64,000 bases of DNA from Elusimicrobia bacterium GWA2_56_46 (GTDB taxonomy: Bacteria > Elusimicrobiota > Elusimicrobia > Elusimicrobiales > UBA9959): NCBI GenBank assembly GCA_001799575.1, contig MGTT01000009.1, forward strand, positions 1 through 64,000, written 5' to 3'. Within the stretch, counting starts at the first letter, position 1. Each line of letters begins with the position of its first letter. The position numbers and the translations under genes are program-made. The notes under the pieces are model-generated. The model was not told the DNA's origin, did not search any database, and saw only the letters and a list, made by a program, of their open reading frames with translations. Positions 1 through 41,831 of the stretch are shown here, piece by piece.

Positions 1-101
1 AGCTGATCTCGCCCGTGGCCATGACGAAGGGCCTGCGCTACGCGATCCGCGAGGGCGGCCACACGGTGGGTGCCGGCGTGGTGACGGAAATCATAGAATA
101 A
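1..101 (+). CDS. tuf: Elongation factor Tu, C-terminal end (partial)
   Basis: The last 32 codons of EF-Tu enter from the left edge and end with TAA at 99-101. The tail reads as the conserved EF-Tu C-terminus, with the [18 protein letters not shown] block of beta-barrel domain 3, which contacts the aminoacyl-tRNA. EF-Tu delivers aminoacyl-tRNA to the ribosome as a GTPase; the GTPase domain lies outside the window. It is followed after 9 bases by rpmG in the widespread order tuf, rpmG, tRNA-Trp, secE, nusG. Confidence 0.95.
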
Positions 102-22065: not shown

Positions 22066-22148
22066 CGCATAATTTTAACCACACCCATTCACGCTCCGTA
22101 ATTGCCCGCCCATTTTTACCCGACAGGACGCTGTCGGGGTGGCCTGCT

Positions 22149-22592
22149 ATGACCTCAATTGAGGTAAAAAAATTCTTTTATAAAAAAGTCTGCCAAATTG
22201 ATTTCAAACTATACGCCGTTACCTTAAACAAAAAGCGAGTTTATGAGTGTCTTGCGAAAGATAAAGAACGCATTTACAACTATATAGCCCGGATGACGTT
22301 GGAGCGGGTGGATTTTAAAGACGCGGCTGTAAGGGTAATAATAACGGTGGATAAAAGCAAATCCAAGCATGAAATACTTGGTTTTAACGAATATATAATC
22401 AATCAGATCAAAGCCCGCATTGATCCGCTTGTGCCCCTAGATATTTTCCACGCTCTTTCGCAGGAAAACCCCGGATTACAGGCTGCGGATATGTTCGCCT
22501 GGGGGCTTTTTAGAAAATATGAGAATAAAGATTGCGCGTGGTACGACATTTTTAAAACGCGCTTGAGAGTAGATCGGCTTTATCTGCCGTAA
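22149..22592 (+). pseudogene. DUF3800 gene remnant lacking its N-terminus
   Basis: The 147 residues match only the middle and C-terminal parts of DUF3800 proteins: KKFFYKKVCQIDFKLYAV, then VRVIITVDKSKSK, then the hallmark QENPGLQAADMFAWGLFRKYE. The usual N-terminal DESG segment, with a conserved acidic residue, is missing and is not encoded upstream. Full members have about 200-240 residues. Base composition is clearly more A/T-rich than the neighbours, which suggests acquisition. The fold may be nuclease-like in other studies; activity here is unlikely without the N-terminus. Confidence 0.7.
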
Positions 22593-22598
22593 AAAGAA

Positions 22599-22692
22599 GA
22601 AGAGCGTGCCGCGTAGACTAAAATGCCCAGGCTATGGCCCACACGATGGAAGGGAACACCTGGAACGGCCTACAACGGGCTTACCGCTCTTC
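22599..22692 (+). ncRNA. Candidate structured RNA downstream of DUF3800
   Basis: Directly after the DUF3800 remnant a nested fold can be drawn. P1 is 22599-22606 with 22685-22692 (8 bp). P2 is 22608-22610 with 22678-22680 and 22613-22616 with 22670-22673. P3 is 22627-22631 with 22659-22663. A further hairpin follows at 22692-22711. Several conserved RNA classes named DUF3800 motifs are known beside DUF3800 genes, so the position is suggestive. I cannot match it to a specific class without a covariance model. Confidence 0.35.
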
Positions 22693-22879
22693 CTCTATAG
22701 TATATCAGAGGCCGTATCTCCCGTCAATAGAAATTTTTTCTGACGGGCCATGAAGAAGGATTGCGTTGAGGAGGATCGGTTGGAGATCTTTCAGCCCTCT
22801 AAGGCTAAATGGGGGTATAGTACTCGTGACAAGGAATGTTCGTTAGATTAAAACGCTGAGTGTCCGGCGCGGATATGAG

Positions 22880-22914
22880 GCGCCAGGCTGCCTTAAAAAG
22901 CAGCCTGGCGCTTT
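22880..22914. terminator. Strong GC-rich hairpin with T run
   Basis: A perfect 12-bp stem (22880-22891 with 22900-22911) has the loop cttaaaaa and is followed by TTT. It could terminate transcription leaving the DUF3800 region. An A run in the loop and the AAAG on the other side make it less convincing on the minus strand. Confidence 0.5.
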
Positions 22915-22970
22915 AACGTGGGTGGGTGGATATGGATTCACCAACGACCTGGGCGGGAACAACTATATTT

Positions 22971-23116
22971 TTAAGGATCTCAGAGTAAGGGAACAGTGAA
23001 GGGGTGGCGATGGGCAGCCTTTTTGACCCGGCAGGCTGCCGACGGAAGCAAAAAGGCTGCCCGTCGACAGGCCCCCGCTCTGTCGTGCGCCACTTCCTAT
23101 TAAGTAACTGTGTCAA
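22971..23116 (-). repeat. Structured dispersed repeat, copy 1
   Basis: The first 36 bases match 41631-41666 with three differences. An 18-bp hairpin (23008-23025 with 23049-23066, one mismatch) follows, then a right block shared with copy 2 (gctctgtcgtgcgc). The stem sequence is unlike copy 2, but the 23-nt loop is similar (CCCG, CAGG, CCGA and GGAAG in the same order). The element lies just beyond the stop of the minus-strand methyltransferase gene, as copy 2 does beyond transketolase. Confidence 0.7.
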
Positions 23117-23144
23117 TCTCCTTTCCGAATAGGCAGGATAAGTG

Positions 23145-24425
23145 TCAATTCTTCTCGAAGACCAGGAGGGTTTCTACGTGGGGGGTGTTGGGGTAGAAAT
23201 CGAAAGCGGCGGAGCGGACCAGCTTGTACTTCTCCAGGAAGAACGCCGCGTCGCGGCCCTGCGTTATCGGGTTGCAGGACAGATAGATTATTTTCCCCGG
23301 CAGTAACTCCATTATATTCTTCACCACTTTCTGGTGCAGCCCCGCCCTCGGCGGATCCAGCACCAGGATGTCAGCGCCCTTGAGCAGAGCCGCGTCGGCT
23401 TTTTCCATCATAGAACAGAGTATCTCAAAATTCCCGGCCTTATTCTGCTCCGCGTTAAGCGAAGCGTACCTGACCGAGTTAGGCACGCATTCCACGGCGT
23501 AAACCTTGTCCGCCAGATCCCTGAGCGCCAGACCTATGGCGCCCACGCCGGAATACAGGTCTATGAGCTTTCCGCACTTGAACGCCGCGCCGCGTATTTC
23601 CTTCAGAGCTTCTTCAAAAAGCTCCATATTGTTCTGAAAAAAACAGTCGAAACCGTATGAAAGGAGCGTGCCGCAGACCTTTTCGGTGACGAAATCATTT
23701 CCCCAGGCGCTTATGATCTCGTCGGCGGAGCTCATGGGACTTAAGGGATTGGAATACGCGGCTATGAAGCCGTTCAGGCCTTCCGGCCTGAATTCCTTCA
23801 GGGCGATATCTTTTCTTTTCAGGAACAGAACCGCTATCCGTTCGCCGGTATTCTTGGCCTCGCGGAAAATAAGGGTTTTCAGGTCGGCCGGGGTCAGTCC
23901 GGCTTCGTTAAGTTTTTCAAGGATCTCAAGGGCGATGGCGTTGGTCTTGTCGCTCATCAGGGCGCAGCCTTTTGGCAGCGCGTACATCTCACGGTAGTTG
24001 CCGCGCTTATGGAAAGCGAAAGCCAGCCGGCCGTTTTCGGAGGCGAAGCTGTATTCTATCTTGGTGCGGTAGCCGAAGAGCTGTTTGGCCTCGTAAAACT
24101 TATCCAGCCGGATGGTCTCATGGGTGGTCTGGTACAGGAGGTCTTCCACCAGGCCTTTTTTTGTCTCGGCCTGCAGGGGATAGTCCATGATCTGCCAGGG
24201 AGAGCAGCTGAGGTAATGGTCTTCTTTCGGTTCGACTCTCCTCGGCGAGGGCGTGAGCACTTCCAGCAGTTCCGCCTCCATGAAATTGCGTTTTTCCATG
24301 GTCACGCGGACGCGGGCGGTTTCGCCGGGCAGGAGTCCGTAGGCGAAGACCACTTTGCCGTCATGGCGGCCGAGAGCTTTTCCTTCCCCGACGATTTTTT
24401 TGAATTCAAGAGTGATTTCTTTCAT
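23145..24425 (-). CDS. TrmA/RumA-family RNA uracil-5 methyltransferase
   Basis: A 426-residue SAM-dependent enzyme that makes 5-methyluridine in rRNA or tRNA. It has an N-terminal TRAM RNA-binding domain (about 1-58), a central domain, and the catalytic Rossmann fold with DLYSGVGAIGLALRD at about 284. The catalytic Cys is in YLSCNP near residue 380. Unlike E. coli RlmD it lacks a full four-cysteine cluster motif near residue 75; only LSCSPW remains. The start at 24425 is at the TRAM domain. An upstream in-frame start would run into the palindromic element. Confidence 0.88.
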   Translation of the reverse strand: MKEITLEFKKIVGEGKALGRHDGKVVFAYGLLPGETARVRVTMEKRNFMEAELLEVLTPSPRRVEPKEDHYLSCSPWQIMDYPLQAETKKGLVEDLLYQTTHETIRLDKFYEAKQLFGYRTKIEYSFASENGRLAFAFHKRGNYREMYALPKGCALMSDKTNAIALEILEKLNEAGLTPADLKTLIFREAKNTGERIAVLFLKRKDIALKEFRPEGLNGFIAAYSNPLSPMSSADEIISAWGNDFVTEKVCGTLLSYGFDCFFQNNMELFEEALKEIRGAAFKCGKLIDLYSGVGAIGLALRDLADKVYAVECVPNSVRYASLNAEQNKAGNFEILCSMMEKADAALLKGADILVLDPPRAGLHQKVVKNIMELLPGKIIYLSCNPITQGRDAAFFLEKYKLVRSAAFDFYPNTPHVETLLVFEKN

Positions 24426-24432
24426 AGTTGCC

Positions 24433-24705
24433 GCTAGTGCTCTGACCGGATAATACGCGGCGTTTATGACGCGGCGATTTTGACTTCCGGCTAGGCGCGA
24501 GGAGCGAGCATGCCTTGCGGCATGTAAGCGACGAGCAACGACGCCGGAAGTCAAAAGCGCCGCGCCCCCCGGGGGAGGCCCGCTCTTGGCCGATTGCTTC
24601 GTTGCTCCTCATTCAGATATGCGCCGCTATCCTCATTCGTCGCGCCTCGCACTCGCCCAAGACTCGGGCCTTCAAAACGCCGCGTATTATCCGGTCAGAG
24701 CACTA
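24433..24705. mobile_element. MITE-like element with 32-bp perfect inverted ends
   Basis: Bases 24433-24464 are the exact reverse complement of 24674-24705. Inside, 24471-24491 pairs with 24543-24563 (two differences), and a further hairpin joins ggcccg near 24578 to cgggcc near 24665. No transposase gene is present. The 273-bp length, terminal inverted repeats and lack of coding content fit a miniature inverted-repeat transposable element. No clear target duplication is visible at the ends. It fills most of the 363-bp gap before the Cache gene. Confidence 0.6.
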
Positions 24706-41102: not shown

Positions 41103-41504
41103 GGAATTGGTTCCATCCAATTCCCAGCCCCCATAAACATCATAATAAAAACCCGCCCCGTTTTCAAAGCGTTTGATAGTTGCATTAGAAATGTAACGCC
41201 GGGCCGGCCCCGCACTTTGGCTCGTTTAGAAAAAGTGCGGGGCTGGTAGGCTTTGGGTTTGCGAACCGCAGGATAGCCCAGTCGGTGCGGCGGCGGGTTT
41301 CCCGCGCGCTCCGGGTTCGGGTTTTATGGAGAAGAAGACCGGGGTCTTCCGCCGGCGTGCGAACCTGCTCACTGAATTGTGCTTCGCACCCGGCCAAAAG
41401 ACAATGCTTTTGGCCTCAAACATTCACCGCCGTCCCGGAGGGATACGCTCCAGATCCCGGTCTTAAAACCCTCCGAATGGAGCACGCGGGAAACCCGCCG
41501 CCGC
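41103..41504. repeat. Multi-palindrome intergenic region
   Basis: Within a 767-bp gene-free gap there are several strong palindromes. 41103-41110 pairs with 41117-41124, and 41207-41218 pairs with 41232-41243 (12 bp). A long imperfect pair has perfect 20-bp outer arms, 41287-41306 and 41485-41504, enclosing the hairpins ccggcgtgcgaa/ttcgcacccgg and ggccaaaag/cttttggcc. Short open frames here follow repeat sequence and lack ribosome binding sites. It could be a MITE-like insertion or a structured RNA; I see no coding gene. Confidence 0.5.
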
Positions 41505-41577
41505 CCCTCCATTAAACCTGCGCGTATTATGTTAGCTCGGCTTTATTCCCCGGCGCTTCCTTATAAATAAAACATCT

Positions 41578-41820
41578 TTACCCCGCCCAGTCACGATACG
41601 GCGTAATTGCCCGCCCCTTTATTCTATGTTTTAAGGATTTCAGGGTAAGGGAACAGGGAAGGGGTGTCGGCGGGTATTGTTGGAGGGGTGACGGGATCAG
41701 GCCTTTTCGTCCCGCAGGTTTCCGAGGGAAGCGAAAAGGCCTGATCCCGGCAGGCCCCCGAACTGGCAGCCGCCGACAGCCCGCTCTGTCGTGCGCGACT
41801 TCTATAAGTATCTGGATCAA
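41578..41820 (-). mobile_element. Structured dispersed repeat, copy 2 (short derivative)
   Basis: The left end carries the 15-mer cgtaattgcccgccc at 41602-41616, shared with 22097-22111. From 41631 it follows copy 1 at 22971. A perfect 17-bp hairpin (41693-41709 with 41732-41748) and an outer 9-bp helix (tgtcggcgg near 41666 with ccgccgaca near 41771) are present. The right block gctctgtcgtgcgc matches copy 1. The element ends 12 bp before the transketolase stop. It lacks the DUF3800 region found between the same ends at 22077-23116. Confidence 0.5.
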
Positions 41821-41831
41821 TTCTTATCGGC

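Follow-up and report, generated by a model that had tools for sequence, protein, structure and literature searches.

The window, i.e., the whole 64,000-nucleotide stretch analysed, contains a DUF3800 gene remnant and a structured RNA between two pieces of an interspersed repeat, here designated M (site 1), and a second pair of M copies with nothing between them (site 2). The features are as follows:

22066–22111, minus strand, 46 bp: inverted stub of the M 5′ terminus; its reverse complement begins GGGCGGGCAATTACG, as in other M copies
22119–22151, plus strand, 33 bp: R3 promoter/operator module, a CGACA-N6-TGTCG dyad followed by a TATR-type −10 element; sole match in the window, with 0.04 expected
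22149–22592, plus strand: DUF3800 gene remnant with the first ~72 codons deleted (PF12686 positions 62–149; alignment with intact homologues)
22597–22694, minus strand: DUF3800-V RNA, convergent with the DUF3800 gene (RF02964, 58.4 bits against a cut-off of 37.4, positions 1–96, full length; T-run downstream)
22699–22727, minus strand: predicted sigma-70-like promoter of the DUF3800-V RNA, TTGACG-N17-TATACT (from sequence; relatives have the same arrangement)
22880–22911, no strand assigned: hairpin followed by T's, a possible intrinsic terminator (self-inverse match and sequence)
22922–23117, plus strand: diverged M-family repeat with the hairpin core at 23001–23079 (repeat searches, alignments)
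41190–41616, minus strand: M repeat with a long alternative hairpin domain (5′ core 60 bits, 3′ core 36 bits)
41629–41821, plus strand: M-family repeat, forming with 41190–41616 a doublet without cargo (alignments, HMM)

A preliminary description of this DNA had reported that two ends found at site 1 recur at site 2, and this recurrence was reproduced. The 15-mer CGTAATTGCCCGCCC is present in exact copies at 22097–22111 and 41602–41616, and the right blocks align in two pieces, at 90% for 22969–23009 with 41629–41669 and at 82% for 23061–23117 with 41770–41821. In its middle, the right block contains the hairpin of a high-copy repeat, and this part is not the same at the two sites; outside the 15-mer, the left ends align weakly. 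The gaps between the ends, given earlier as ~860 and ~14 bp, measured ~859 bp at site 1 and ~14 bp at site 2. The lower-GC patch was likewise found, with 45.4% GC in the site 1 cargo (22112–22921) compared with 56.8%, below 99.9% of 810-bp windows. Direct repeats of at least 15 nt number 13 in the window (1–5 in shuffles), and a single 15-mer repeat by itself would mean little. The longest word common to the left regions of blocks 1 and 2 was 15 nt, compared with a maximum of 12 in 200 dinucleotide shuffles; these local shuffles, together with further exact or one-mismatch copies in the same repeat context elsewhere, rule out chance as the origin of the 15-mer.

Beyond site 1, the first ~57 codons of the ORF at 23145–24554 (about 24384–24554) have 83–93% matches at C15:109898 and C4:46833 (contig:position in the host assembly). 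The start of this ORF may overlap another dispersed repeat, and its true start is probably later.

Both ends at site 1 proved to be copies of one interspersed structured repeat, M, in opposite orientation, and not the distinct left and right ends assumed earlier. Their boundaries were corrected: the left piece runs from 22066 and the right from about 22922, and the left copy at site 2 extends back to 41190. When the host assembly (2.66 Mb, 30 contigs) was searched, the right block matched 47 places and the whole element 56, and three merged searches gave 63 M copies. The majority of matched places have in common just the ~75-bp hairpin, whose arms vary by copy yet stay paired; the arms covary, with both sides changed in 11 of the 33 predicted pairs. 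M comprises a ~195-bp conserved core and this variable, covarying hairpin of 75–300 bp. Its 5′ end is GGGCGGGCAATTACGCCGTACCATGATTTGGGCGGG and its 3′ end is ...AGCCCCGGCGTTACNTTA.

Read on the opposite strand, the left 15-mer corresponds to the 5′ terminus of M; it also occurs, with at most one mismatch, at C28:203787, C28:84336 and C22:74748. The right block (22922–23117) is a diverged forward M, the linking form being the copy at C20:36936 in minus direction. The HMM ranks these two pieces as the weakest of the family (3.4 bits, weak, for the stub taken alone; 7.5 bits, marginal, for the 5′ part of 22922–23117), while the reversed copy at site 2 is strong. Site 1 is a head-to-head M pair made of a reversed stub and a diverged forward copy; it is not an intact doublet, the left copy being without its outer part.

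Comparison of M with known RNA families returned only sub-threshold matches to microRNA-type hairpins. Integron attC sites were considered for the M ends and rejected, the end motifs not fitting on inspection. In some M copies, including 41240–41530 and locus L065, the usual hairpin is replaced by a multi-branched palindrome of 250–300 bp (GGCGGGTTTCCCGCGCGCTCC...), and congener G002 has a related domain at the orthologous site. Three contigs stop within an M hairpin loop (L110 at the end of C8, L109 at the end of C14, and L111 at the start of C1). The sequences at these points, CTCATTAGCGGTTCCCGTGTCAAGAGG and GAGGAGGAGACTTATGAAAT, resemble both termini of a multi-copy insertion sequence and hint that it targets the loop.

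The orientation of M copies was strongly biased towards inverted pairs. Among 12 pairs of neighbours within 1.5 kb, 10 were head to head, none tail to tail and two in the same direction; within 5 kb the corresponding counts were 13, 0 and 6, a distribution unmatched in 20,000 orientation permutations. Some doublets are empty and others hold one gene, encoding a class I methyltransferase, a Bro-N protein (PADLOC candidate PDC-S13), an M23 peptidase or a 319-aa unknown protein. The outer ends of the units on C28 and C30 are inverted M 3′ ends, i.e., terminal inverted repeats, and the inverted terminal copies have the outer consensus TAANGTAACGCCGGG.

Empty sites, which the preliminary description had suggested looking for, were found in congeners. 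In G001 and G002, the spacer corresponding to site 1 lies between the same convergent genes and holds a head-to-head M pair, with neither DUF3800 nor the RNA. The M-cargo-M unit with the methyltransferase (C28:202705–204010) is absent as a whole in three congeners, with spacers of 76–125 bp, and that with Bro-N (C30:42268–43483) is absent as a whole in one, with a spacer of 89 bp. No target duplication was readable at the C28 and C30 sites, where the relatives are ~72–82% identical and the spacers differ in sequence; these absences could instead be deletions in the relatives. Since the site 1 spacer is a bare doublet in two congeners, insertion of the cargo between repeats already in place would be a simpler history for the three genomes compared, although loss in the two congeners may also account for the pattern. 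This bare doublet, together with the two other units missing whole, establishes a recurrent, polymorphic M-bracketed unit as real. The unit is not DUF3800-specific, and its cargo varies.

The preliminary description had proposed a DUF3800-associated element whose ends are fixed, with the site at 41.6 kb as its internally deleted derivative. The same two end types do occur in the same order at both sites; however, there are tens of independent occurrences in which DUF3800 is missing, some with other genes inside, an outcome which that description had itself named as counting against its proposal. DUF3800 in turn occurs elsewhere without these ends. M is present in congeners, and its matches numbered zero in 128 DUF3800/DUF3800-V loci outside the genus (610 kb), none of which showed the same ends. 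We reject a DUF3800-specific element as highly improbable, because its supposed ends belong to a repeat of 63 copies that brackets other genes or nothing. The idea of a full and an emptied unit holds insofar as site 2 is the same pair with nothing between; site 2 as a deletion derivative of a DUF3800 element finds no support. The earlier account was thus partly supported: the structure it saw is real and recurrent, and its guess at how the filled and the cargo-free forms are related was a good one, but it linked the structure to the wrong partner.

M copies might alternatively be non-mobile regulatory or termination structures, selected at the 3′ ends of genes, with a doublet representing one copy for each of two convergent genes. 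In many cases a stop codon is only a few bases away from the M 3′ end, and the hairpins are strong and conserved. However, doublets also bracket single genes and are then missing whole in congeners, and the presence of M varies at orthologous gene ends, which makes this explanation unlikely. We consider it probable that site 1 is a REPIN-like inverted M doublet that has taken up a small accessory module of RNA and nuclease.

The cargo at site 1 includes both elements suspected from the initial inspection, namely a DUF3800 remnant and an RNA-like fold, the latter identified as Rfam family RF02964. The remnant retains R3 but has lost PF12686 positions 1–61, corresponding to homologue residues 1–72, and with them D7, E8 and E63; it does not contain the DES motif and acidic catalytic set of a complete domain. 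Because the catalytic N-terminus is deleted, the host DUF3800 nuclease must, judging from its sequence, be inactive. DUF3800 and DUF3800-V are each present in a single copy in the host genome.

R3 also precedes intact DUF3800 genes in relatives and, in the host genome, about ten further genes, including those for Bro-N, ORF6N, DUF1016 and Gp49/RelE-like proteins. The arrangement looks like a regulon of solitary accessory genes that are unrelated to one another. Further occurrences of the R3 module (CGACA-N6-TGTCGGGGTGGYCTGCTATRMTAT) in the host genome, G000, are at C11:17756, C11:7342, C4:38138, C30:42379, C30:52501, C23:3954 and C21:31139. Three of the R3-preceded genes match PADLOC candidate defence families (DUF1016, PDC-S02; ORF6N, PDC-S05; Bro-N, PDC-S13).

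The DUF3800-V RNA ends 4 bp from the stop codon of the remnant, and its gene and promoter at site 1 look intact. In the phylum, DUF3800-V was detected in 22 of 341 genomes. The 29 RNA sites comprised 19 with a full-length convergent DUF3800 gene, five with a remnant and five with none; orphan RNAs were found via RNA searches, and their number is therefore biased. In loci found independently via the protein, mostly from other phyla, the RNA was at the same place in 52 of 60. A predicted RNA promoter with at most two mismatches to TTGACA-N16–18-TATAAT was present in 53 of 80 upstream regions, compared with about one in shuffles; this count is based on mismatches relative to shuffles, an earlier pattern having been too strict for distant phyla. 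A T-run ends 73 of the 80 RNAs. No variable guide segment was seen in these 80 RNAs, where the longest variable unpaired run was 5 columns.

These pairs could themselves be mobile, in which case one would have inserted into a spacer that happened to be rich in repeats, with no connection to the M copies beside it. The pair is patchily distributed over many phyla, at differing sites, and in one genus it lies between wza and wzz in some species, with a plain junction in others. The lack of M near any of the 128 other loci and the presence of M repeats in the site 1 spacer of congeners also favour a mobile pair. However, no terminal repeats or target duplication surround the pair, and homology between copies ends at the two promoters. 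Chance neighbours would also leave unexplained why, where the cargo is a different one, the entire M doublet is either there or missing. We give the mobile-pair explanation an appreciable chance, though one short of even, and retain the acquisition of the module by an M doublet as the probable account.

Locus L169 (G148, contig C62) carries a tandem array of three intact DUF3800/DUF3800-V units with strongly different DUF3800 genes. After two of the units comes a duplicate of the final ~145 bp of wza, joined at exactly the same point in both. Repeated insertion was considered for this array and set aside in view of the single junction common to the units and the wza 3′ fragment that recurs in them; tandem amplification fits better. 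Among 50,697 phage records, none carried the DUF3800-V type; one related viral contig and one close plasmid hit were noted. At L242 and L243 (planctomycete, Kuenenia), an int-alpA RNA is the next feature past the DUF3800-V RNA, hinting at integrative islands.

For an intact DUF3800 homologue, an AlphaFold2 model was obtained with a pLDDT of 89. The top Foldseek match of this model in the PDB was RNase HII (1eke; E = 1.7e-7, probability 1.00, TM 0.57), and D7, E8, D135 and D181 are invariant in intact homologues. Earlier papers assign DUF3800 an RNase H fold and describe DUF3800 proteins accompanying some type V and VI CRISPR loci (PMC10910872, PMC12669027). The modelled RNase H fold, the occurrence at such CRISPR loci (PMC10910872, PMC12669027) and the nearly obligate pairing with a structured RNA would suit an OMEGA- or CRISPR-accessory-like nuclease that the RNA directs to its target. 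However, the conserved RNA begins directly after the promoter and ends in a T-run, leaving no guide-like variable unpaired stretch, and the fold is nearest to RNase HII, not RuvC/TnpB; RNA guidance thus appears improbable. None of the papers searched described a function for DUF3800-V. Most likely, we infer, the intact pair forms an accessory or defence module of two components, with the RNA controlling or licensing the nuclease and being antidote-like rather than guide-like. The RNA outlasting loss of the nuclease fits such an antidote-like role.

According to the favoured account, the accessory module would be lodged between the inward-facing 5′ ends of a head-to-head M doublet. Its low-GC, RNase HII-like gene would lie behind the repeated operator-promoter R3, and on the opposite strand a strong promoter of its own would drive an RNA of ~96 nt, which would end against the 3′ end of the DUF3800 gene. 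By analogy with REPINs (PMC3116915), M doublets may act as very large REPINs or as a composite MITE that a transposase moves or excises in trans, and small genes may become trapped between two M copies. Neither a transposase tied to M nor a clean target duplication was found, which counts against this account. A bolder proposal is that M doublets represent a new kind of structured repeat, mobilised in trans and able to carry cargo. They would be giant REPINs that take up and move single accessory or defence genes, several of them under one common operator, so that defence cassettes are shuffled with no integrase or transposase in the unit; we regard this as speculative and rather doubtful.

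If M doublets carry genes, small non-autonomous repeats would be vehicles of accessory genes and not just intergenic litter, which would help to explain the spread of single-gene candidate defence modules without visible mobile machinery. The association of DUF3800-V with DUF3800 is known, and the M doublets and the common R3 operator are the newer part. So far only a motif beside a gene of unknown function, the pair gains testable features: its own promoter, a convergent layout across many phyla, a predicted RNase HII-like partner, tandem arrays, and RNAs outlasting a decayed nuclease.

Among known systems, REPINs and BIMEs consist of REP sequences paired in inverted orientation, and REPINs are associated with RAYT transposases (PMC3116915); REP units are short, 20–40 bp (PMC3733652). 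M resembles REPINs and BIMEs in being high-copy, extragenic, palindromic and non-autonomous, with predicted hairpins and neighbours mostly in inverted pairs, and its inverted doublets are over-represented, as in REPINs. However, the M unit is several times longer (a 195-bp core plus a hairpin of 75–300 bp), outside the 20–40 bp range, and the gap in a doublet can hold a whole gene. Because the unit size does not fit, we do not claim REPIN membership for M and use REPINs as an analogy for how M may work. MITEs and composite non-autonomous transposons are similar in the inverted terminal M copies around variable DNA and in the presence or absence of units between close species, but M units have no visible target duplication or known parent transposase.

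The intact DUF3800 protein resembles RNase HII in its predicted fold, the D-E start motif and two later aspartates. The two differ in that identity is only 14%, DUF3800 is nearly always paired with an RNA, and the start motif is DESGDLG in DUF3800 and what we take to be DE-x-GRG in RNase HII. Finally, the RNA at site 1 agrees with Rfam RF02964, which belongs to the DUF3800 RNA motifs, in its full-length match above the gathering score and its convergent position adjacent to a DUF3800 gene, but departs from the usual pairing in that DUF3800 is N-terminally deleted here, with the RNA and its predicted promoter apparently intact.
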